A stretch of DNA of 45,893 nt from a virus: the IMG/VR virus record IMGVR_UViG_3300020215_000070, positions 1 through 45,893 of that record. One strand, given 5' to 3'. Numbering within the stretch: position 1 is the stretch's first letter; the number at the start of each line of letters is the position of its first letter. A program made the translations under genes and the position numbers. The notes below the pieces were generated by a model. That model worked only from the letters and a program-made list of their open reading frames with translations, ran no database searches and was not told where the DNA came from. This document shows positions 7,637 to 43,643 of the stretch, one piece after another.

Positions 7637-9306
7637 TGGTTGCCATCAACAGAAAAAGCGAATGCGTCAAAAGATTAGAGGCTCTTAGGCAGGAAAACCA
7701 GGCGTTTATTCCTGCTTACAAAGACCTGTCTAAGTACATTGCGCCTAAACGTGGCCGGTTTGATGAGTCGCGTTCGGCTATCGGCCAGATGATTGACCAC
7801 AAAACTATTCTGGACGGTCACGCAACGCGGGCTTGTGAAATCCTCGCAAGCGGCTTGTCGTCTGGCATGACCAACAAATCACAGGAGTGGTTTAAACCGG
7901 TCATGGAAGACCCTGAACTTTCCGCGAGGCCGCATGTCCGCAGATGGCTTGATCAGGTTCAAAAGATTCTTCTGTCGGTGTGCGAGGGCAGCAACATCTA
8001 TGGCGTTTTTTATTCAATCTATAAAGAGCTCGGGATATTCGGGACCGGCTGTTACATCATCAACGAAGATTTTGATGAAGTGATCCGGGCACGGAGTTTT
8101 ACAGCCGGCGAATACTATCTGGGCGCCGATGATAAGGGCCGGATTAACACCTTTGCCCGTAAATTCTGGATGCAGGTCGGCCAAGTTGTCGAAACGTTTG
8201 GCCTGGAAAGCTGCTCCATGCGGGTCAAGGCCGACTATCAGAACAATCAGGTTGATCGATGGGTGTTGATTTGCCACCTGATTGAACCCAACGACGATCG
8301 GTTTCCCGGATTTGTAGACGTCAAAAACATGGCCTATCGGTCATGTTATTGGGAATCCGGCGAGGGCACCGACCAATTCTTAGCTATCCGCGGTTATCGG
8401 AGATTCCCTGTTGTTGCCCCTCGATGGGAAACCACCACAACCGATCAAGTCTACGGTTACGGTCCAGGCTGGAATCTTTTAGGCGATGTCAAACAGTTAC
8501 AAAAGACCGTCCTAGATAAGCTCCTGGCTCAAGAGAAACTCCATAACCCGCCCATGCAAGCCGATGGAAGTGTGGAGGGCTCTGTCAATCTTTTGCCTGG
8601 TGGAATCTCGCGAACCAGTGCCACGACACCTAATGCTGGGTTAAAGCCCGCCTATCAGATTGATCCCCGCTTAGATTCGTTTATTGAACTCATCAATGGT
8701 CTTAAAGACGCGATCGATCGTTACTACTTTGTGAATCTGTTCCTCATGCTCATGAACGTCGATAAGACGAACATGACCGCAACCGAAGTCGCCGAGCGCC
8801 AGCAAGAAAAGGTCATGATGATGGGGCCTATCTTGCACAAGCTCGACGAGGAAATGCTCACTCCGACCCTAGAGATTATCTTCGACATTTGCCAAGAAAA
8901 CGGTCTTATTCCAGAGCCCCCACCGGAAATTCAAGGGATGAAGGTCAAGATTCAATACATTTCGATCCTCGCGCAAGCGCAAAGGGCGATTGGTGTCAGC
9001 GCTATCCAACGGACTTTAGGGTTAGCCAGCGAGATTGTAGCGGCTACAGCCAATCCAGCAGCGATGGAGGTTATTGATTTGGATGAGGTCATCCGGGAAG
9101 TCGCGGACTTAGAAGGTATGCCGGCCAAATTGCTTAAAGACCCGCAAGCCTTGGCAGCAGAACGTCAACAGCGCGCCCAGATGCAGCAAGCGGCCGCAGC
9201 GACCGAAATGGCCAACTCCGCCGCAGACACAACCAAAAAGCTCGCGGACTCCAAGATGGGCCAGGGCAGCGCCTTAGACGGGATTATGCAGGGAGTTGCG
9301 GCGTGA
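7636..9306 (+). CDS. Head-to-tail connector (portal) protein
   Basis: A 556-residue protein resembling the podovirus head-to-tail connecting proteins (PF12236): an early segment with AYKDLSKYIAPKRGRF, then ATRACEILASGLSSGMTNKS and EWFKPVMED, then GYGPGWNLLGDVKQLQK. The helical C-terminus ends in a Gln/Ala-rich tail typical of portal crown regions. It forms the dodecameric DNA gate at one capsid vertex. ATG 7636 overlaps the stop of the preceding gene (TAATG). Length fits the family. Confidence 0.9.
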   Translation: MVAINRKSECVKRLEALRQENQAFIPAYKDLSKYIAPKRGRFDESRSAIGQMIDHKTILDGHATRACEILASGLSSGMTNKSQEWFKPVMEDPELSARPHVRRWLDQVQKILLSVCEGSNIYGVFYSIYKELGIFGTGCYIINEDFDEVIRARSFTAGEYYLGADDKGRINTFARKFWMQVGQVVETFGLESCSMRVKADYQNNQVDRWVLICHLIEPNDDRFPGFVDVKNMAYRSCYWESGEGTDQFLAIRGYRRFPVVAPRWETTTTDQVYGYGPGWNLLGDVKQLQKTVLDKLLAQEKLHNPPMQADGSVEGSVNLLPGGISRTSATTPNAGLKPAYQIDPRLDSFIELINGLKDAIDRYYFVNLFLMLMNVDKTNMTATEVAERQQEKVMMMGPILHKLDEEMLTPTLEIIFDICQENGLIPEPPPEIQGMKVKIQYISILAQAQRAIGVSAIQRTLGLASEIVAATANPAAMEVIDLDEVIREVADLEGMPAKLLKDPQALAAERQQRAQMQQAAAATEMANSAADTTKKLADSKMGQGSALDGIMQGVAA

Positions 9307-21000: not shown

Positions 21001-21231
21001 AGAGGACAACCTGTAAAGAAAAAGGACAGGATTTTGAACGCCTTTTCTCCTATAGAATCAAGAGAATCAGATGAATCTTTAGAGAAAGTTTACTCTGCAA
21101 CGCAGAAGGTTAAGCAAATCAACCGGGAAGAGAAGAAGTTGCGCGAGGATGGTAAGTCTCTTCCAAGGGAAGATGAAATTCTGCGGAACAAGATTAAAAT
21201 GGAATTAATGCGGTCTAAGAAGGGCAATTAG
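17986..21231 (+). CDS. Large ejection protein with an embedded J-domain
   Basis: A 1081-residue protein at the gp16 position. Around residues 208-258 it contains a DnaJ-type domain: AFADLGIQPNAKTSEVVKAW, then the invariant HPD in ALEAHPDRGG, then FIKIRESYEKIM. Hydrophobic stretches surround it (FVPWFVTEFAPSELLEFG). The middle has YMNILSSPKTHIVNATSNLI, a motif common in large polyvalent phage proteins. The C-terminus is highly charged. J-domains stimulate DnaK/Hsp70; a virion-carried one could recruit host Hsp70 during DNA entry. The start is uncertain (TTG 17983, ATG 17986 or ATG 17992); the gene overlaps the preceding one by about 40 bases. Confidence 0.8.
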   Translation: MTMSPQLQTKAKSNPSDSQTVFITDPGIVKTYPRTMTDDEIEFDVHTGIKGEKPEDYYVNRFPLKQLKQAFNAIGSYMGYGQKAMKLFATRPDIALGINKPSSPEEAANVVAQTYKPWSDLWRESHKGFTEKMDQFYAKAPKWASFVPWFVTEFAPSELLEFGTKPSGWLGAYGVEKFGPVLINKTLSKLPEDVRSTLLKEIFKSEEKLTEAFADLGIQPNAKTSEVVKAWRNKALEAHPDRGGNPEDFIKIRESYEKIMQTRGGFWDKLFDAFRSGMEAQPSRGPVGMLANESGGMLIPFNEGDLVKVGSDVAKLIRITGKMATINQAGKIVQVGLEKLKPYEDAEGARREVDLGLMTSATNSPQGAAPTALSSGNTILTGEGSNVNPPSEPPSKGLGDLPDGYEPPEAAVNLERLQATEEAKTTLGKATEAIAEEIQNQTGKKLSHEEVIEKSKEVEILTKGVSRDQTLKFAAELLKTREHMTALAEQQELTPEFLTSLRTVANTGTDIARLLESMKINAMPEYATVKTKIIKKLIEIGKTNEEIQDAAKGVDFTDQDQVATFYRKFVKPKWYEVLDEFAYMNILSSPKTHIVNATSNLIQMAGLNPITRLASGTVDMVGSALTGKERQHYMSEIPQFYKGAINAFPDAFDGLVKALQGKTFIERPDVKHLPTKDIKVEIATLGLGKHVLRALEASDVFFRTLIEGGEMEALAERAGRQGVPLDDKAKVGIEKEAKKRAAYYVFRQPLDPENKSGQGDLLSTIDKLTSAVYRLREVPGASWFIRFVQTPMNILKQGIEYSPAGALTLKGSKDKSEQIGKTIIGSMVFAGASYLAMNGRTTWSLPRGKKDRELFYQAGRIPYAIKIGDQWVSYSKLGPLAYPIAMAAALNYYEKESPNALSDTKIERHLKAMQGIMEFFSDQSYVQGMGDLIKTIQGDKQALSRAVANLPSQFITLSSLQGWINQIIDPIYREAKPGVTLESIWQNAQKKIVGFSQNLPAKKDFRGQPVKKKDRILNAFSPIESRESDESLEKVYSATQKVKQINREEKKLREDGKSLPREDEILRNKIKMELMRSKKGN

Positions 21232-21607
21232 ATTTGTTCTTTATTTTTTTGATTAGTGGTGCTCTGACGAGGGACATTATGCCAATCGTTAAGATGGCGA
21301 ATAGCCAATTATAGAAGAATAGGAACATAAAAAAAAGTAGACCAAAGATTGCAAGAGGCGTAAACATTCCGTCGGAATCATCTAGGGCATCATGGATTTG
21401 CGACAAAAAGTTTTGAACATATCCAATGGATAGGGCAAGAATGATTAGACCAAGAATATCAGGAATCATGGGAGCGGTAGGGAGAATTTTATTTTTCAAA
21501 AACTTCTCGGAGCCCCAAATTAGTAGATAAGGACCGCCCCATACTATCGCGATGGTGGCAACAATTTTAAGTCGATCAAGGGTGCATTTCTGACGTAAGT
21601 GTGTCAT
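21215..21607 (-). CDS. Polytopic small membrane protein
   Basis: A 130-residue product with about four hydrophobic segments (IVATIAIVWGGPYLLIWG; ILGLIILALSIGYVQNFL; FTPLAIFGLLFFMFLFFY; WLFAILTIGIMSLV) and basic ends. It is last in the minus-strand cassette 22899-21215. Its 3' end overlaps the 3' end of the ejection protein gene on the other strand (convergent). No clear Shine-Dalgarno sequence. Function unknown; a holin-like or immunity role is speculation. Confidence 0.6.
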   Translation of the reverse strand: MTHLRQKCTLDRLKIVATIAIVWGGPYLLIWGSEKFLKNKILPTAPMIPDILGLIILALSIGYVQNFLSQIHDALDDSDGMFTPLAIFGLLFFMFLFFYNWLFAILTIGIMSLVRAPLIKKIKNKSNCPS

Positions 21608-21622
21608 ATAAAAGTATATGGA

Positions 21623-22024
21623 CTAAATAGACTCATCTTCTTGATCGGACGTCGCTGGGAGATCGTCAGGATTATAACAGTCAGAGGAAATGTAACCTCG
21701 GTCAATGAGGATAGATGCAATGGTTTTGGGGTCAATATCAAATTTGGTAGAAATCGCCGTTAATATTTTTAATAAGTCATTGTCCTCTGATAAAAAGCGA
21801 GCAACGTTTTCTTGGTCGTATAAGTTGAGAAGTTGGTCAGTTTTTTCTACGGATAGACCGTATTTCGAAGCGAGAAGCACAACGACTTCATCTGCATTAG
21901 GGCTTAAGGTGATTTGATTATTTTTTTCTGTGGTTGGACTATTGGATCTTGTGATCAGCCAGAGTCCAAAAATGACAGCAGGAGTAATGAGGTAAGGGAT
22001 GAACTTTCTTAAGGTGTCTTTCAT
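21623..22024 (-). CDS. Membrane-anchored acidic protein
   Basis: The 133-residue product (from ATG at 22024; an in-frame ATG also exists at 22042) has an N-terminal membrane helix (YLITPAVIFGLWLI) followed by an acidic helical domain (VVVLLASKYGLSVEKTDQLL; FDIDPKTIASILIDRGYI) and ends DQEDESI. The soluble part looks like a small helical bundle. It belongs to the four-gene minus-strand cassette. No Shine-Dalgarno sequence is obvious. Function unknown. Confidence 0.6.
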   Translation of the reverse strand: MKDTLRKFIPYLITPAVIFGLWLITRSNSPTTEKNNQITLSPNADEVVVLLASKYGLSVEKTDQLLNLYDQENVARFLSEDNDLLKILTAISTKFDIDPKTIASILIDRGYISSDCYNPDDLPATSDQEDESI

Positions 22025-22148
22025 GGCGCAAGTATGCCACATAAAATTGAAAAAGCAAATTTATTTTTGGGAGAGATTATGAAAAAGAGCAAGCAATCAC
22101 CTTTAGAGAATACATTTGACAGGATGGCTAAGATCGCCATGTCACGCA

Positions 22149-22430
22149 CTAATAATTCCCGATATTCTTCCAATTTTGCTGCATCGTTTGGAGAGTCAGA
22201 GTCAAGCTCGGCAGAAGGGAAGCGTCGATCGGAACATCAAAGCGTTTTCCCTCAGCTTTGTCTCGAAATACAAGGATCAAAAGATTCTGGTTTACCTTAT
22301 CTATGCTTACGAGCTCGGCCATCTCAGGCAACAAAAATGGTCCGGGTGCTGATGTGTCAAATTCAAAGTGACCATCTTTTAGCTCTTTCATCTTTGAGAA
22401 CAATCCCTTTGGCAATTGAGGTAGATCCAT
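22149..22430 (-). CDS. Small soluble hypothetical protein, minus cassette
   Basis: A 93-residue product, MDLPQLPKGLFSKM followed by a beta-rich part (FLLPEMAELVSIDKVNQNLL, ILVFRDKAEGKRFDVPIDAS). I chose ATG 22430 because AGGAGG stands upstream, just after pseudoknot leader A. An overlapping plus-strand frame (22079-22525) has a fair Shine-Dalgarno sequence but an unnatural Ser/Arg/Cys-rich product, so I prefer the minus strand. Function unknown. Confidence 0.55.
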   Translation of the reverse strand: MDLPQLPKGLFSKMKELKDGHFEFDTSAPGPFLLPEMAELVSIDKVNQNLLILVFRDKAEGKRFDVPIDASLLPSLTLTLQTMQQNWKNIGNY

Positions 22431-22458
22431 GTCTTGAATACCTCCTAGAAATGAAAAA

Positions 22459-22544
22459 CCCACAGGATAACGGCGAAGTTAAACCTGTGGGAAAAAGGGT
22501 TAAGGCCCTTTTTAAGAAAGCTTGATTGTCTTCGCCGTTTTTTA
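22459..22544 (-). promoter_or_regulatory. Pseudoknot leader A (minus strand)
   Basis: Read on minus: ACGGCGAAG (22538-22530 when transcribed), a spacer beginning ACAATC, a hairpin AAAAAGGG/CCCTTTTT (plus 22492-22513), then CCCACAGG/CCTGTGGG (plus 22484-22491 with 22459-22466) enclosing CTTCGCCGT, which pairs back to the 5' strand. A short T run follows, then AGGAGG and the start of the 22430 gene. The same architecture with compensatory base changes is present at 22920-22993. It looks like a pseudoknotted attenuator or a structured 5' leader. Confidence 0.7.
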
Positions 22545-22551
22545 AATCGAA

Positions 22552-22899
22552 TCACTGTTGAATACCGGTGCCATTCTCAAAAAGGATCTCTTTTTTAGGG
22601 GCGCTTAATGCTTTATCAATTTCGACTTTCAGCTCTTTTTTTGTTCTTTCGGCAGTTGAAACGGCTGTCCAAAGAATTATACAGCTCACTAGGATTAAAT
22701 GAACTAAAAACTCGGGGAGAGTGGCTAAAAGAGTCTTTGCTAGACTTGGCATATTCTGCCATTGGGCTTGTAATGTATCTCTTATTCTTTCCCCAAGTAA
22801 GTTTAGGGTTGGCTCTAGCAGCTTTTTTACTATCAAGCATGCTATTAACCATATTATTGCCAACTTTGCGCTGGATAGGTCTGTCGGTGTTTGAGGCAT
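22552..22899 (-). CDS. Membrane protein, first gene of the minus cassette
   Basis: A 115-residue product with two hydrophobic segments (AKLAIIWLIACLIVKKLL; FLVHLILVSCIILWTAVS) and a charged C-terminal helix (AERTKKELKVEIDKALSA). It follows leader B; ATG 22899 stands 20 bases after the leader hairpin in an A/T-rich context without a Shine-Dalgarno sequence. A plus-strand frame (22608-22928) also encodes a hydrophobic product with a possible AGGGG, so strand assignment is not fully certain; the leader pseudoknots and the minus promoter favour minus. Confidence 0.55.
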   Translation of the reverse strand: MPQTPTDLSSAKLAIIWLIACLIVKKLLEPTLNLLGERIRDTLQAQWQNMPSLAKTLLATLPEFLVHLILVSCIILWTAVSTAERTKKELKVEIDKALSAPKKEILFENGTGIQQ

Positions 22900-22919
22900 T
22901 TATAAATAAAAAAAGAAAA

Positions 22920-22993
22920 CCCCAGTGACGGCCAAGCCAGCTGGGGCAAAAGGGTTAAACCCTTTTAGAAAATCTGAATTGTTCTTGGCCGTC
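22920..22993 (-). promoter_or_regulatory. Pseudoknot leader B (minus strand)
   Basis: Read on minus: GACGGCCAAG (22993-22984), a spacer beginning ACAATTC, hairpin AAAAGGG/CCCTTTT (plus 22948-22966), then CCCCAG/CTGGGG (plus 22941-22946 with 22920-22925) whose loop carries CTTGGCCGTC, a 10-bp match to the 5' strand. A T-rich tract follows (TTTTCTTTTTTT). Compared with leader A the pairing ACGGCG-AAG has become ACGGCC-AAG with the matching change in the loop: compensatory covariation. This is evidence for a functional RNA. Confidence 0.75.
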
Positions 22994-23007
22994 AATAAAG
23001 ACAGACA

Positions 23008-23036
23008 ACTATAACATATGACCTAAAAAATATCAA
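23008..23036 (-). promoter_or_regulatory. Promoter for the minus cassette
   Basis: On minus, TTGATA (23036-23031) is separated by 17 bases from TATAGT (23013-23008): a near-consensus sigma70-type promoter. The predicted transcript starts around 23001, a few bases before the GACGGCCAAG strand of leader B. This places the whole pseudoknot at the 5' end of the transcript. Confidence 0.65.
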
Positions 23037-23076: not shown

Positions 23077-23135
23077 CCAAACAGCAGCAAAAAGCCTGTT
23101 CTTGTGCACAAGCGAGAACGGGCTTTTTTGTTTGG
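23077..23135 (+). terminator. Palindromic-loop hairpin element E3, before the fibre gene
   Basis: AAAGCCTGTTC (23091-23101) pairs with GAACGGGCTTT (23116-23126, one G-U). The palindrome TTGTGCACAA (23102-23111) and the bulge GCGA lie between. A T tract follows. The outer stem CCAAACA (23077-23083) with TGTTTGG (23129-23135) closes after the T tract, 14 bases before the likely GAAAGGA ribosome site. Outer stem and flank are nearly identical to E4. Confidence 0.8.
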
Positions 23136-23156: not shown

Positions 23157-24137
23157 ATGACGGTTGAGAATACAGAAAACAAGGAAATCTACTCAGGCAA
23201 CGGGACAACTTACCGCTGGCCTATCACCTTTGAGACGAGCGGGGTCGAAGCCTCGGAAATCAAGGTTTACAGGACCGATTCGGATGGAGTCAGCACACTT
23301 CTTACATCCAATTATGAGGTCGATTTAAACGCGCTTGAGGTCATTTACCCAACACCGGCGTCTGGTCTTGATCCAGTGCCGACCGGCGAAGGGGTTGTCA
23401 TTTTGCGAGCCCTTAGCCTCAACCAAGAGCTGGATCTAAAAAACCAAGGCACCCTTAATGCCGAGAATTTAGAAGACGGATTTGACCGAGTTGTAATGAT
23501 GATCCAGCAGGTCCAAGAACAAGTTGACCGTACCCCCCAAGCTGACGTGAGCGAAAGCGGGGAGGACTCTGCCGTAGCAGCCCTCTTAGAAGAAGTGCGA
23601 GACGCCAGAGACGATGCGGAAGATTCGGCAAATGCGGCGGCTGCGAGTGCTAATTCGGCCGCAACATCCGCCACTAACGCATCGGCCAGTGCTACGGCTG
23701 CGGACACATCTAAGACCGCCGCCCAAGCAGCTCAAGTGGCAGCGGAGGCCGCGGCGGCGACCGTCTCCGGATTGCAGCGTAAGATCGTCGTTTTTACAAT
23801 CGACATGACTACGGCAAGCGGCTTGCAAGCCGTCAGTGGAACAACTTTTACTCCTAAGCTGGCCATTTTCTTTGCAGCAGAGACGACCGCATCAATGCTT
23901 AATTCTTGGGGCTTTGATGATGGGACATCTCGCGTTTGTATTTATAACCGTGGCAATCAATCGGGGGCAGGGAATAACCGGTTTGCCAGCACTGTCTCTA
24001 TTCTGGCCGATCAATCAGCGTCGGCCAATTATCAGGGGTATGTGGACTCGTTTAATTCGACAGGCTGCATCATCAATTGGACTAAGAGCGGTGCAGCGAC
24101 TGGAACCCTAACTATTGCCGCATTGTTTCTCGGATAA
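23157..24137 (+). CDS. Tail fibre protein with T7-type N-terminal domain
   Basis: A 326-residue protein. The N-terminal part (NKEIYSGNGTTYRWPITFET; VILRALSLNQELDLKNQGTL; LEDGFDRVVMMIQQVQEQVD) is the virion-attachment domain of T7-like fibres (PF03906 type). It is followed by an Ala/Ser/Asp-rich coiled-coil region (ARDDAEDSANAAAASANSAA) and a beta-rich C-terminal domain that could bind the receptor. GAAAGGA precedes the start. Unlike the six genes after it, it has no signal peptide. Confidence 0.88.
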   Translation: MTVENTENKEIYSGNGTTYRWPITFETSGVEASEIKVYRTDSDGVSTLLTSNYEVDLNALEVIYPTPASGLDPVPTGEGVVILRALSLNQELDLKNQGTLNAENLEDGFDRVVMMIQQVQEQVDRTPQADVSESGEDSAVAALLEEVRDARDDAEDSANAAAASANSAATSATNASASATAADTSKTAAQAAQVAAEAAAATVSGLQRKIVVFTIDMTTASGLQAVSGTTFTPKLAIFFAAETTASMLNSWGFDDGTSRVCIYNRGNQSGAGNNRFASTVSILADQSASANYQGYVDSFNSTGCIINWTKSGAATGTLTIAALFLG

Positions 24138-26352: not shown

Positions 26353-29300
26353 ATGAAAAAAATCCTGATGATTCTAGTCCTGCTAGGGATTCGATGTGTG
26401 CCAGCGATTGCTGGGGACACGACGACCAATGGATACTTTTATTTGCCGGCTCTGGGTGCTGACGGCGCTGACGAACGAAACACCTGGTTCAATAAACTAC
26501 AAGCCACTGACGCAATCATCGGAGCGATGCGATCGGCTGTTTATTGGACTGACGGGACTAATTCGACGTTGACTGGCGAGAAGGATCTGGAAGCATCGGA
26601 TTTGGCTATTACTGCTACGTGGAATTTTGCAGACGGAATCTTAAAGCTTCCAAGCGGGCTCGCTCCTAATACGGCTCATTGCGACGCATCCAATGAAGCC
26701 GGCCGGATTTTTGTTGATACAGACGCAACATCTGGCCAGCAGGTGTATGTTTGCGAGGGCACATCCGGGTGGAAACTCCAAGGCGATGGTGGCGGTGGTG
26801 GTGGAGGTGGCGGTTGGACCGACGGGGGGACAGACATCTACTTACAAACTTTAACTGACAAAGTTGGCATTGGCACTTCAGCGCCTAGCAAGGCTCTAGA
26901 AATCTCTGGGAGTGACCCTAATATTTTATTGACTGATACACAATACACTGGAACTAAATGGTCCATCCATGCGGTTGACAATGGGTTTGGAAACGGAACA
27001 AATTTTGGTATTCGATCAACCAGTAATAGCGGATCAACTTATTCTAACGATCTTTTTATCTGGCCTGGGGCTAATGTTGCCATCGGCACGTTGACGCCAG
27101 CATATCCGGCTAAGCTAACCTTAAAAGGCGCAGGCACTGGCTCAGGCAGCAATCTTGTCCTTACGGATTCTAGCAATAACGTTAAATTCTCGGTTTCTGA
27201 TGATGGCACAACGGGAATCGGGACAACTTCTCCCAGAGGCCGCCTTGATATTGGGACAGGAAATTTCTACGGAAACACCGTTACCGTAGGGACGGTTAAT
27301 ACTGGCTCAGGCGTCGGTCTAGTTGAAGCAACAAATGGCATTGGATTTGACCCTAACGGAACTGGGCCACTGATGAAGTTAACTACAACCCGTTTCGTCG
27401 GAATTGGAACGACTGCGCCTACGCAAATTTTGCATGTAGTCGGTGCTCCACGGTTCACGGGATTAGTAAGTTGTGACACGATTGACTCAGATGCTAACGG
27501 CGTTCTTTCCTGCGGAACTGACACCGGCGGGACGGCCGCTGGCGGATGGACAGATAGCGGATCACAAATCTATCCCACAACGCTGACTGATAGTGTCTCT
27601 ATTGGGACTTCATCTCCGGGTACTGGCGGATTCATCGGAACTCTTAGAATACACAAAGATACCAACAACGTCAACCAGATGGTTTTAGATAATCCTAACG
27701 GTGGGACAGCGGCCCAGGCCAGGATGAATATTTCAACGGCAACCGCCAACGGTTTGTTCGGTGTCTATCCAACTAATTACATCTCCAATGATTTTCATCA
27801 AGGAAAAACAGTGGTCATGTCAGAAACCGGTAGCGGTGTTGTTATTGAGGGGCAATCTGCTTCTGGTGAAATCATTTTGGCTAGCGGTGGTGGTAATGAA
27901 CGACTCCGCGTCGAATCTGACGGGGATATTGCGATTGGGACAACGAGCAGCACGGCAAAAATGTTAGTTGCTCAAACCGGCGCGGCTGATTCTTTCCGGG
28001 TCAATGACGCTGCGGCTGACACGTCTCCCTTTGTGATTGATCAATCAGGCAATGTTGGCGTCGGGACAATAGCACCATCAACCCAGATGCACGTCGTAGG
28101 AAATATGCGTGTCACGGGTCTTACTTCCTGCGACACGATTGACACGGATTCCAGCGGAAATATGATTTGCGGAGCTGACAACGGGGGAAGCGTAGGCGGT
28201 TGGACGGATGCGGGTACTGTTGTCTACGCGACAGCAACAGGCGACAATGTCGCAATTGGAACCACTGTCGCATCGACTAAGTTACAAGTCGCTGGGACAG
28301 TTACAGCAACGGCATTCGCTGGCGATGGATCAGCATTGACTGGAATTAGCGGGTCAATCAGCGGGCTAACAACTACGAAAATTCCTAAAGCGTCCAGCGC
28401 TACGGCAATCGTTGACTCACAGATTGCTGACGATGGTACTAACGTCTCTCTGGGTACGACCACATCAAACGCAAAATTGTTGATCGAGCAATCTGCAGCA
28501 GCTAATGCGCTTCGCGTCAATGACGCGACCGGTGATGGGACTCCCTTTATTGTCGATCAAGACGGAAACGTGGGAATTGGGACAGTAACGGCCACGAATC
28601 CTTTAGAAATCCGTGCTGCTACAGCTGCATTAGGTTTCCGGTCAGTCTCAACAGCCGCTAGTGGCGCGTCTTCCGGATCTGGCATTCTTGCCGGATCAGA
28701 CGATGGCGCTGCAATTGCCAGCGGTGATCGGCTGGGGTTCTATGGATTTACCGGGGCAACAGATGCTTCCCACAGTTTGGCTAATGGAGCTCTGATCAGC
28801 GCTTTTGCTTCTGGAAATTATACCGGTTCATCAATTCCAACAGAACTCAGATTTGAGACAGCACCTTCTGGGTCAACGACACGGATTGAACGAATGCGGA
28901 TTGAATCAGATGGGGATGTCGGTGTTGGAACATCCACTATTGGAGCTCAATTGACACTAGAACAGACAGATTCAGCTGACTCCTTTAGGGTTAATGACGA
29001 GGCCGGGGATACAACGCCTTTTGTTATTGATCATCTCGGTGCCGTGGGCGTCGGAACGACTAGCCCGGTCGGTGCCTTAGATATTCGCAGCGATGAAGTG
29101 CGGTCTTGGACTGGTGGCGGAACAGCAGGAACAGCAACTGGCGCAGGTGATCTGTATGTTGAAGGAGACTTGGAGGTTGATGGAACAATTACAGCACCCT
29201 CGGGGTTAGGGGGCAGGAGCCTTACTGTAAGCGGGACGGCTCTAGATGCTGACACTGAACTATATACGGATGTTAAGTGCGTCAACATTGACCCTGCGTC

Positions 29301-29598
29301 AACGACAACCGATTGGTTTGGATTTAAAGCACCTTTTAATTTAACGGTCACAGGGATTGATTGCATTGTGGATGCGTCTACCAGTGTTGTGCTGACACCT
29401 AACGAGTGCGACGGAAACGGTGCCAATTGCACGGCCATTGAAGCCGCAATCACCTGTGCCACGACTAATACGACCGAAGCCAGCGGAGTTGATAATAGCA
29501 GCGTCGATGCCGGGGATTGGGTACGTGTTGTTCGAGGGACAGTGAGTGGATCACCTAAGCAGGCTAACATTTGTTTTGAGTTTACGAAAAATGATTAA
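26353..29598 (+). CDS. Large signal-peptide repeat protein (tail-fibre-like)
   Basis: A 1081-residue protein with an N-terminal Sec signal (MKKILMILVLLGIRCVPAIA). After a Gly-rich linker (residues around 150-160) it contains many beta-repeat units with the motif VGIGTxxPxxxL. There are two copies of a TGLxSCDTIDxDxxG unit with paired Cys and several copies of SFRVNDxAxDTxPFVID. Such repeats are frequent in fibre and surface proteins of environmental bacteria and phages. The C-terminus has more Cys (VKCVNIDPAS; DCIVDAS; CDGNGANC). GAAAGGAAAGAG precedes ATG 26353. Confidence 0.75.
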   Translation: MKKILMILVLLGIRCVPAIAGDTTTNGYFYLPALGADGADERNTWFNKLQATDAIIGAMRSAVYWTDGTNSTLTGEKDLEASDLAITATWNFADGILKLPSGLAPNTAHCDASNEAGRIFVDTDATSGQQVYVCEGTSGWKLQGDGGGGGGGGGWTDGGTDIYLQTLTDKVGIGTSAPSKALEISGSDPNILLTDTQYTGTKWSIHAVDNGFGNGTNFGIRSTSNSGSTYSNDLFIWPGANVAIGTLTPAYPAKLTLKGAGTGSGSNLVLTDSSNNVKFSVSDDGTTGIGTTSPRGRLDIGTGNFYGNTVTVGTVNTGSGVGLVEATNGIGFDPNGTGPLMKLTTTRFVGIGTTAPTQILHVVGAPRFTGLVSCDTIDSDANGVLSCGTDTGGTAAGGWTDSGSQIYPTTLTDSVSIGTSSPGTGGFIGTLRIHKDTNNVNQMVLDNPNGGTAAQARMNISTATANGLFGVYPTNYISNDFHQGKTVVMSETGSGVVIEGQSASGEIILASGGGNERLRVESDGDIAIGTTSSTAKMLVAQTGAADSFRVNDAAADTSPFVIDQSGNVGVGTIAPSTQMHVVGNMRVTGLTSCDTIDTDSSGNMICGADNGGSVGGWTDAGTVVYATATGDNVAIGTTVASTKLQVAGTVTATAFAGDGSALTGISGSISGLTTTKIPKASSATAIVDSQIADDGTNVSLGTTTSNAKLLIEQSAAANALRVNDATGDGTPFIVDQDGNVGIGTVTATNPLEIRAATAALGFRSVSTAASGASSGSGILAGSDDGAAIASGDRLGFYGFTGATDASHSLANGALISAFASGNYTGSSIPTELRFETAPSGSTTRIERMRIESDGDVGVGTSTIGAQLTLEQTDSADSFRVNDEAGDTTPFVIDHLGAVGVGTTSPVGALDIRSDEVRSWTGGGTAGTATGAGDLYVEGDLEVDGTITAPSGLGGRSLTVSGTALDADTELYTDVKCVNIDPASTTTDWFGFKAPFNLTVTGIDCIVDASTSVVLTPNECDGNGANCTAIEAAITCATTNTTEASGVDNSSVDAGDWVRVVRGTVSGSPKQANICFEFTKND

Positions 29599-35176: not shown

Positions 35177-35643
35177 ATGAATCGCTGATTATCTTCCAGT
35201 TTGCTGTTGCGACATTCTGCCTATTCGTTGGGTCCGTGCTCTACTCAATGGGCGGATACAGGGGAAAATGGAAACGCCGGTTTCTGGGCAGCCTGATTTT
35301 GGCCGGCGGGTTTAACGCTATCTGCGCTTGGCGTGGAGTATGGGCACCTTGGCAAATCTTAGCTTGGGGGATAACCATCGGAGCTTTTTGCTTACCATAT
35401 GGAGCTAAAAGCCTTGTTCCCAAGATTCTCAAGCGGTCCGCAGTTGTTGCGGCCATGTGCCTAACCGGTGTTTTGTTTGCGATCCAGCATGGTGGAAATG
35501 CCTGGTGGGTCTTGATTCCTCATGCCGGCATGGGGGCCTGGTCGGTCTATTTAGGCGTCAAAAATCCCATTCAAGCTAGGGCAGAGGAGGGATTTGTTTG
35601 CATCCTCCTGAGTCTAGGTCTTTTTATGTACCCTTTTTCTTAG
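35173..35643 (+). CDS. Polytopic membrane protein
   Basis: A 156-residue product with about five hydrophobic segments (FQFAVATFCLFVGSVLYSMG; FLGSLILAGGFNAICAW; WQILAWGITIGAFCLPY). The GGYRGKWKRRFLGSLILAGG region resembles a small membrane protein family seen in phage lysis regions. Its 3' end overlaps the convergent PEP-CTERM gene by 30 bases. Function unknown. Confidence 0.65.
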   Translation: MNESLIIFQFAVATFCLFVGSVLYSMGGYRGKWKRRFLGSLILAGGFNAICAWRGVWAPWQILAWGITIGAFCLPYGAKSLVPKILKRSAVVAAMCLTGVLFAIQHGGNAWWVLIPHAGMGAWSVYLGVKNPIQARAEEGFVCILLSLGLFMYPFS

Positions 35644-36261
35644 AGCTATTCCTGCCAATCCTGCCCCGAAAAGTGCTAACGTTGCAGGTTCTGGGGTATG
35701 CACTGACGCTACCTCAAACCCAGTCACATCGACATTCACGACGGGTCCGCCTACTGGTGCTCGAATCCCGCTGGGAAGAACCGTATAATTTCGCTCTCTC
35801 GCCAGCCAGTAAGTGCCAGGTTGCAGTGTTATATCAAAGGGCGTCCGAACATTGTAATAGTCAAATGTCTTATTTGGTTCGGCGTGTACCGTTGTCGTCG
35901 AGGAAATTAACATATTTCTGCCTGGGATCGGCTGATTGTTGGCTCTAATGTCCAGCCGCGATCCTTCATAAATTTTGAAATGAAATGGATAATCAACTAC
36001 TCCATTGAATGATTCATGCACACGTGCATCATAAAATAAATAATCAAGATTTAGCTCTCCGTTAACTGTAAATTCCTTGGCTCCACCAATAGAGTTGTTC
36101 CCGCCAGGTCCTCCAATATATCCGCCATACGATTGCGAAGTCCAGCCGATATTATCAATCAATTCAGCGAACTTTCCGGTGTAGTCAAGGTCAATAATGA
36201 GTGCGTGTGCTGGTGTGCTCAGTACTGCGGTTAGTGCGATGGCCAAAATTATTTTTTTCAT
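35614..36261 (-). CDS. PEP-CTERM surface protein
   Basis: A 215-residue product (from ATG 36261 with GGAGG upstream; an in-frame start at 36294 would disturb the signal peptide). It has a Sec signal (MKKIILAIALTAVLSTPAHA), a Gly/Asn/Tyr-rich beta domain (NNIGWTSQSYGG-like), and the diagnostic C-terminal sorting signal: PEPATLALFGAGLAG, a membrane helix, then the basic cluster RKRVHKK. PEP-CTERM tails are recognised and processed by exosortase, an inner-membrane system of diderm bacteria making exopolysaccharide. The phage does not encode an exosortase in this window, so it would rely on the host. Confidence 0.85.
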   Translation of the reverse strand: MKKIILAIALTAVLSTPAHALIIDLDYTGKFAELIDNIGWTSQSYGGYIGGPGGNNSIGGAKEFTVNGELNLDYLFYDARVHESFNGVVDYPFHFKIYEGSRLDIRANNQPIPGRNMLISSTTTVHAEPNKTFDYYNVRTPFDITLQPGTYWLARERNYTVLPSGIRAPVGGPVVNVDVTGFEVASVHTPEPATLALFGAGLAGIALRKRVHKKT

Positions 36262-36284
36262 GACCGTCCTCCATGATTGGTTAG

Positions 36285-36308
36285 CGTTTGCCAAAGCAAA
36301 CGATTATA
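36285..36308 (-). promoter_or_regulatory. Hairpin and -10-like element upstream of the PEP-CTERM gene
   Basis: On minus, TATAAT (36308-36303) is followed by the perfect hairpin CGTTTGC tttg GCAAACG (36302-36285) and then GGAGG before ATG 36261. There is no good -35 at the usual distance, so the promoter is tentative; the hairpin lies in the predicted leader or acts as an operator. Confidence 0.4.
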
Positions 36309-43049: not shown

Positions 43050-43377
43050 CAAGCACCTCCCGCGCAAACTTATCCCATGAGGACCACACGCCGTAGGAGG
43101 TGCCACGGTAGCCGACAATCTGCACTCTGGCATTGTTATTAATGGCACACTGCACATCCTCGAGGGTGCAGTTGTTAAAATGTCCGTCAGTGGGGTCATC
43201 ATCTCTGTACCATTTGAGTGCCGATTGTCCTCGGACAAAATAATAACCGGCGCCATCATTAGGATCGTAGACTCGTACCTCAATATCACGCTGTTGATGC
43301 TCGGGGATGTTCTTCCCCTGGGCCTCAAGCCAGGCTTGCGCCTGGCCGAAGATGAGAGTGGGGTTGATGTTGCTCAC
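43036..43377 (-). CDS. Hypothetical protein, minus operon
   Basis: A 113-residue product (PTLIFGQAQAWLEAQGKNIP; VRVYDPNDGAGYYFVRGQSA; QIVGYRGTSYGVWSSWDKFA) with alternating beta strands. It overlaps both neighbours slightly, consistent with one operon read leftward from the promoter near 44300. No family recognised. Confidence 0.6.
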   Translation of the reverse strand: MSNINPTLIFGQAQAWLEAQGKNIPEHQQRDIEVRVYDPNDGAGYYFVRGQSALKWYRDDDPTDGHFNNCTLEDVQCAINNNARVQIVGYRGTSYGVWSSWDKFAREVLDAQT

Positions 43378-43643
43378 GGGATCACCGTAAATGTGTGAGA
43401 TTCGTAATTATTTGTTGTTTCCACGGCCCGGTACCAGCATTCCCATTCCTCTCCGTTGCTGTTCCCGCCAACGACCTTAAAAACTAATTTAGACGGAGAG
43501 AAATACCAATCCGACCAAACTTGTAATCCGTTGAGTCCTATTCCGTTGAGTTCTCCTGATGTTTTGTCGTGTTTCCAGTCGGTGACTACTTCTGGGTTTT
43601 TGGGGCGGAATTCTCGTGACCAATCTGGGCAATATTTTTTCAT
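43374..43643 (-). CDS. Small Trp-rich hypothetical protein
   Basis: An 89-residue product with many aromatic residues (LQVWSDWYFSPSKLVFKVVG; EEWECWYRAVETTNNYES). AGGAGG precedes ATG 43643. Overlaps the next gene in the operon by 4 bases. Function unknown. Confidence 0.6.
   Translation of the reverse strand: MKKYCPDWSREFRPKNPEVVTDWKHDKTSGELNGIGLNGLQVWSDWYFSPSKLVFKVVGGNSNGEEWECWYRAVETTNNYESHTFTVIP

Follow-up and report, generated by a model that had tools for sequence, protein, structure and literature searches.

Pseudoknotted, terminator-like leaders in a podovirus-like phage are candidate transcription attenuators

Two leaders on the minus strand of a podovirus-like phage genome each contain two interleaved stems (S1 and S2) and a T-run directly behind the second. 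This structure is well supported by sequence comparison, and the leaders look like a real but rare, previously uncatalogued gene-control element. With a probability of roughly 55%, we favor reading each leader as a transcription attenuator that acts in cis through a pseudoknotted terminator; the attenuation itself, its sign, and any trigger are what we infer from this arrangement.

The window is the whole stretch of DNA analyzed, an IMG/VR record of 45,893 bases. Family and protein searches identified terminase, portal, T7-like tail proteins, and an internal virion protein, which together indicate a podovirus-like phage. Its major head protein has 44–45% identity to those of Pseudomonas phage AF, BcepC6B, and phiV10. 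Both leaders lie in a minus-strand stretch that is flanked by the plus-strand genes for the internal virion protein (ending at 21231) and the tail fibre (starting at 23157). A pairing search confirmed the two leaders where the initial annotation had placed them. The promoter-like TTGATA-17-TATAGT described upstream of leader 1 is also present and would start transcription near 23001, although such matches show no enrichment in the window (9, versus 12.8 in shuffles).

The order of elements in the RNA is the S1 5′ strand, ACAAT, a hairpin (AAAAGGG/CCCTTTT), the S2 5′ strand, 4–5 nt, the S1 3′ strand, 0–2 nt, the S2 3′ strand, and the T-run (Table 1). S1 comprises 11 bp in leader 1 and 10 bp in leader 2. 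S2 comprises 7 bp in leader 1, namely CCCCAG/CTGGGG (22946–22941 with 22925–22920) and one G·U pair, and 8 bp in leader 2 (22491–22484 with 22466–22459). The S2 loops of the three copies now known measure 15, 17, and 15 nt, and each holds the S1 3′ strand. The strand order (S1-5′, S2-5′, S1-3′, S2-3′) is that of an H-type pseudoknot, in which a geometry model predicts that both stems are able to coexist. The ACAAT after S1, the A/G-C/T hairpin, the T-runs, and the pairing of the terminator loop with the 5′ strand were all described earlier and are present in both leaders; a 5′ strand of 9–10 bases holds for leader 2, whereas that of leader 1 is longer (11 bp rather than the 9 claimed). The leaders have the GC-rich stem and U-run of an intrinsic terminator, but the S2 loop is not of the small size (3–8 nt) typical of one, and the leaders are absent from a standard terminator scan of the window.

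Table 1. Features of the leaders and the adjacent genes
Feature	Position	Strand	Basis or remark
Promoter-like TTGATA-17-TATAGT, extended −10 (TG)	23008–23036	−	consensus scan, 10/12 matches; candidate site
Leader 1, whole	23001–22905	−	two interleaved, fully paired stems, S1 and S2, then T-run
Leader 1, S1 5′ strand TGACGGCCAAG	22984–22994	−	perfect inverted repeat with 22926–22936
Leader 1, unpaired ACAAT	22978–22982	−	identical in 3/3 leaders
Leader 1, middle hairpin AAAAGGGTT/AACCCTTTT	22948–22966	−	AAAGGG/CCCTTT pairs invariant across 3 copies
Leader 1, S2 5′ strand GCCCCAG	22941–22947	−	pairing
Leader 1, S1 3′ strand CTTGGCCGTCA inside S2 loop	22926–22936	−	pairing
Leader 1, S2 3′ strand CTGGGG and T-run TTTTCTTTTTTT	22908–22925	−	U-tract score 4.80
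115-aa ORF after leader 1, membrane-like	22552–22899	−	no clear Shine-Dalgarno; codon score −0.005
Leader 2, whole	22541–22449	−	same layout as leader 1
Leader 2, S1 5′ strand AACGGCGAAG	22530–22539	−	perfect inverted repeat with 22469–22478
Leader 2, unpaired ACAAT	22525–22529	−	common to three leaders
Leader 2, middle hairpin AAAAAGGG/CCCTTTTT	22492–22513	−	pairing
Leader 2, S2 5′ strand CCCACAGG	22484–22491	−	pairing
Leader 2, S1 3′ strand CTTCGCCGTT inside S2 loop	22469–22478	−	pairing
Leader 2, S2 3′ strand CCTGTGGG and T-run TTTTT	22454–22466	−	pairing, sequence
Shine-Dalgarno AGGAGG after leader 2, outside structure	22441–22446	−	sequence; ATG follows
93-aa ORF after leader 2	22149–22430	−	codon score 0.141, sense-like
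139-aa ORF, one N-terminal hydrophobic segment, next in cassette	21623–22042	−	codon score 0.121
130-aa ORF, several hydrophobic segments, last in cassette	21215–21607	−	codon score 0.048
L009 leader	8222–8156; L054 about 17963–17874	−	IMG/VR pattern match

Such a layout is rarely produced by chance. A descriptor (S1 of at least 8 bp, S2 of at least 6 bp, short linkers, T-rich tail) found both leaders, while dinucleotide-preserving shuffles of the window averaged 0.03 elements per genome and yielded two or more in 1 of 1900 shuffled genomes. Both leaders fold better than 200 of 200 shuffles, even in a model without pseudoknots. The initial annotation had named, as a ground for doubt, that the plus-strand frames might be the real genes; opposite-strand frames do not explain the stems.

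IMG/VR was searched with the pattern ACGGCNAAG-(0,1)-ACAAT-(25,50)-CTTNGCCGT, and one of the three matches, L009, has the whole layout. Its S1 (CAACGGCCAAG/CTTGGCCGTTG), AAAAGGG hairpin, and S2 (GCCCCGTGT/ACACGGGGC) are followed by CTTTTTATTTT; an extended −10 (TGCTATAAT) lies immediately 5′ of the leader, and a Shine-Dalgarno (TAGGAG) and ATG lie 3′. A covariance model built from leader 1 and L009 only, with S1 as its sole stem, picks up leader 2 with a score of 51.8 bits (E = 3.4e-12). Mean column identity is 81% between leader 1 and L009 and 77% in the three-way comparison, whereas the terminase, portal, and tail proteins of the two phages are 22–50% identical and the small proteins behind the leaders are unrelated. 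This disparity argues either for transfer of the leader RNA between phages or for much tighter constraint on it than on the surrounding proteins. The genomic position differs as well: the L009 leader lies on the strand opposite to the internal virion protein gene, a short distance upstream of that gene's start codon. One stretch of protein stands apart: a 135-aa C-terminal tail segment is 59% identical (window about 29190–29595 (+), L055 about 8590–9000 (+)), which points to a recent exchange or a common host. In the L009 phage, a further minus-strand cassette (L055 1178–2699 (−); 76, 61, 109 (lipoprotein-like), 98, and 137 aa) occupies the same place as that of the window, ahead of the tail fibre; its hairpin is plain and terminator-like, and it has no pseudoknot leader. 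A hairpin also precedes the tail fibre of that phage (L055 about 2800–2850), in a place equivalent to that of an inverted repeat with T-runs on both strands in the window (23094–23125), flanked by the minus-strand promoter-like site on one side and the start of the plus-strand tail fibre on the other.

The genes behind the leaders had been described as a membrane-protein cassette. The description suits the 139- and 130-aa ORFs, with their hydrophobic segments, but not the 93-aa ORF, in which no membrane segment is obvious. The 115-aa ORF is doubtful as a real gene; its codon score falls between the sense and non-sense controls, and an opposite-strand ORF scores about equally. By the same measure, the 93-aa ORF behind leader 2 (0.141 bits/codon; control, 0.147) and the 82-aa ORF behind the L009 leader (0.314; control, 0.322) look like sense frames. 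Searches gave neither a family match nor a phage relative for the 93-aa ORF, and IMG/VR yielded no close relatives of the 93- and 115-aa cassette proteins, the internal virion protein, or the tail fibre. AlphaFold models of the 93- and 82-aa proteins from single sequences (pLDDT of 54 and 62) were too poor for use. The position of the leaders in the cassette is best regarded as incidental, given that the homologous leader precedes an unrelated small gene and that the gene after leader 1 is doubtful.

Leader 1, which joins a promoter, an RNA, and a terminator with the strongest U-run into a complete unit ahead of this doubtful gene, raises the question of whether the leaders act in trans. A promoter, a pseudoknotted RNA of ∼95 nt, and a terminator could make a stable phage small RNA, with the downstream gene receiving readthrough only, and conservation of the single-stranded ACAAU and of the S1 sequence would suit such a molecule. 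We nevertheless consider it improbable, as the U-run of leader 2 and of L009 is followed at once by a Shine-Dalgarno and start codon, which an independent small RNA would not need.

The choice between an attenuator and a translational switch had been left undecided. Attenuation is favored here on two grounds: the Shine-Dalgarno sequence, in leader 2 and L009, is located 3′ of the structure and is not part of it, and the T-run is kept; a translational switch fits the anatomy less well. The leaders might instead be 5′ UTR structures that protect the mRNA or tune its translation, with an incidental U-run. S1 does enclose nearly the entire 5′ end of the expected RNA, and a Shine-Dalgarno lies just downstream in two of the three copies. 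However, neither stem contains or visibly masks the Shine-Dalgarno, and all three copies keep the U-run directly behind S2, which leaves this reading with somewhat poorer odds than a small RNA.

Pairs were counted on a hand alignment by structure, as MAFFT misaligned leader 2; such an alignment favors the structure. Across the three copies, three of the 11 S1 pairs and five of the nine S2 pairs have changed on both sides and still pair, and the other eight S1 pairs are invariant. Each stem has one broken cell, at its outer end. The middle hairpin does not vary, so it is uninformative on pairing there. These changes agree with the covarying pseudoknots of the initial annotation, on three copies, which are too few for a formal R-scape test. 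That annotation had named a lack of homologues in other phages and a lack of covariation as grounds against its reading; a homologue exists in a distant phage, and both stems contain compensated pairs.

S1 is conserved in sequence beyond the needs of pairing and, like a mobile site, the element recurs beside unrelated genes. Both properties might be expected if the S1 arms were half-sites for a repressor or recombinase in DNA and S2 with its T-run were an ordinary terminator. Against this, the S1 changes are compensatory in both arms, and an S1 arm placed exactly within the S2 loop, 0–2 nt from S2, is not required of DNA sites. Of the paired integron attC motifs (RYYYAAC/GTTRRRY), GTTTAAC is present, but no leader has a GTTRRRY box. 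We regard DNA-level sites as a distinctly poor explanation. Equally poor is an ordinary large-loop terminator with a functionless S1 pairing, for although S2 and the U-run would suffice alone and leader 2 could end an upstream transcript, S1 is far above chance and is preserved by paired changes across the three copies, and leader 1 and L009 have no gene between promoter and terminator.

As the initial annotation had supposed, the leaders fall outside the named RNA classes: no Rfam family matched them at its gathering score, and permissive filters gave chance-level scores alone (the near-misses to atoC, PyrG leader, and anti-hemB were dismissed on this ground). Hairpin-only patterns in IMG/VR returned, besides L009, only matches that on reading lacked the S1/S2 layout, and a relaxed S1 pattern gave no additional true copy. 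In a genome collection, the S1 pattern had seven matches, none with S2 and the U-run, and most were apparently intragenic. Searching phages and plasmids with the leaders by blastn gave no homologue. The covariance model found no copy in bacterial samples of 369–398 genomes each (two classes and three phyla, partly overlapping), under strict filters and without a positive control, so that this absence counts for little. There was also no leader copy in the phage genomes reached through the major capsid protein (Limnohabitans phage DC33, zth2-2, and BcepC6B) or the internal virion protein (MW202801 and CRP-118). The DC33 record (PQ492659.1, L059; 39 kb, circular) is filed under Inoviridae, and its major capsid protein is epsilon15-like, as expected of a tailed phage. 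A few sets of terms applied to 5.39 million open papers gave no description of the layout, which is weak evidence of absence.

By analogy, the leaders may work like terminator-controlling riboswitches, yet they lie outside every catalogued class. In the ZTP (pfl) riboswitch, an upstream strand (J1/2) pairs co-transcriptionally with the loop (L3) of a later hairpin and controls an intrinsic terminator, whose formation requires breaking the pseudoknot (PMC10687018). The upstream strand-loop pairing is alike, but the ZTP terminator and pseudoknot are mutually exclusive, whereas S1 and S2 of the leaders share no bases; ZTP genes belong to purine metabolism, and those of the leaders are unrelated small phage genes. 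The HMP-PP (thiS motif) riboswitch is a compact leader with an aptamer embedded in a terminator hairpin and an unusually conserved terminator loop (PMC6478431). There, the aptamer forms at the expense of part of the terminator stem, and the genes are thiamin related; no association with a ligand or gene class was seen for the leaders. The fluoride (crcB) riboswitch relies on an H-type pseudoknot that decides, during RNA synthesis, whether transcription is terminated or continues (PMC11077080, PMC10687018). That pseudoknot is upstream of the terminator; in the leaders, the terminator hairpin is itself one of the pseudoknot stems.

Phage morons are small, reverse-oriented genes that lie between phage genes and have their own promoter-like site. 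As accessory loci (PMC7067206), they share the orientation and promoter layout seen here, but a shared structured RNA leader does not define them. The leaders are on the opposite strand, with a promoter-like site and with unrelated genes in two phages. ToxI, the RNA of type III toxin-antitoxin systems, is a phage-related small pseudoknot RNA with a promoter and a terminator ahead of its gene. Where ToxI (PMC5772629) has tandem short repeats and a ToxN-family gene, the leaders are single units, no ToxN-like gene was found, and family searches with the downstream genes were empty.

For the attenuator that we favor, the order of elements is most complete in L009 (promoter-like site, leader, Shine-Dalgarno, ATG). 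Leader 1 has the promoter-like site and a doubtful gene; leader 2 has the gene and no convincing promoter of its own, and it could end an upstream transcript. These two gaps, and the small number of copies (three), count against attenuation. In leader 1 and L009, where promoter-like sites lie just upstream, the S1 5′ strand lies in the first ∼10 nt of the predicted transcript. When folding of the growing chain was calculated without pseudoknots, S1 had formed completely in each of the three copies before S2 could begin to do so. At full length, again without pseudoknots, S1 is 7.4 kcal/mol more stable than S2 in leader 1 and 3.4 kcal/mol more stable in L009, and the two tie in leader 2. The linker crossing the S1 deep groove must span 20.7 Å for 10 bp or 25.0 Å for 11 bp (A-form model, coaxial stack via the S1 3′/S2 3′ strand), a distance that leader 2 (5 nt, 10 bp) covers easily but that would leave the linker nearly fully stretched in leader 1 and L009 (4 nt, 11 bp). 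Because the stems have no bases in common and 4–5 nt are long enough for the groove, S1 and S2 can, in this model, coexist as a coaxial stack that ends at the U-run.

S1 would thus form first and decide whether S2 stops the polymerase, which would meet a terminator whose 15–17-nt loop is organized or strained by S1; the fate of S1 would set the level of transcription that reaches the small phage gene. The sign that we favor is one in which S1 and S2 form together and S1 makes S2 an effective terminator. Readthrough would follow when S1 is held open by a protein at the conserved ACGGCNAAG/ACAAU, by a trans RNA, or by fast transcription. Conservation of S1 and ACAAU in excess of pairing needs suggests that something binds there. 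The reverse sign, with S1 as an antiterminator, is also allowed, since S1 outcompeting S2 without a pseudoknot could give antitermination by default. On the folding model, leader 1 and L009 would be read through by default if the pseudoknot were unable to form and would terminate if it were able to.

A bolder proposal, which we offer tentatively and think rather doubtful, is that the leaders represent a new class of phage regulatory RNA, in which a pseudoknot between the terminator loop and the transcript's 5′ end is either the sole condition under which the terminator works or the sole condition under which it fails. Such an RNA would be a portable module for unrelated accessory genes and would sense a host or phage factor through ACGGCNAAG-ACAAU and the A/G-C/U hairpin. 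If this were true, the leaders would provide a compact architecture with the terminator hairpin as a pseudoknot stem instead of its competitor, and this architecture would be one that passes between highly divergent phages, ahead of unrelated genes. They would also make a simple system in which to study how intrinsic termination responds to tertiary pairing in the terminator loop, and they would help to find accessory genes in uncultivated phages.

Two further features of the window lie apart from the leaders. A 226-aa protein (35614–36294 (−)) has a signal peptide (MKKIILAIALTAVLSTPAHA) and a C-terminal PEP-CTERM sorting motif (PF07589, 33.6 bits), which hints at an exosortase-carrying host. 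A Type II hammerhead ribozyme (RF02276; 43684–43747 (−); 51.8 bits, gathering score 37) lies directly upstream of a minus-strand ORF (43374–43643) with a Shine-Dalgarno AGGAGG; from this match, the 5′ UTR of a phage gene is predicted to contain a self-cleaving RNA.
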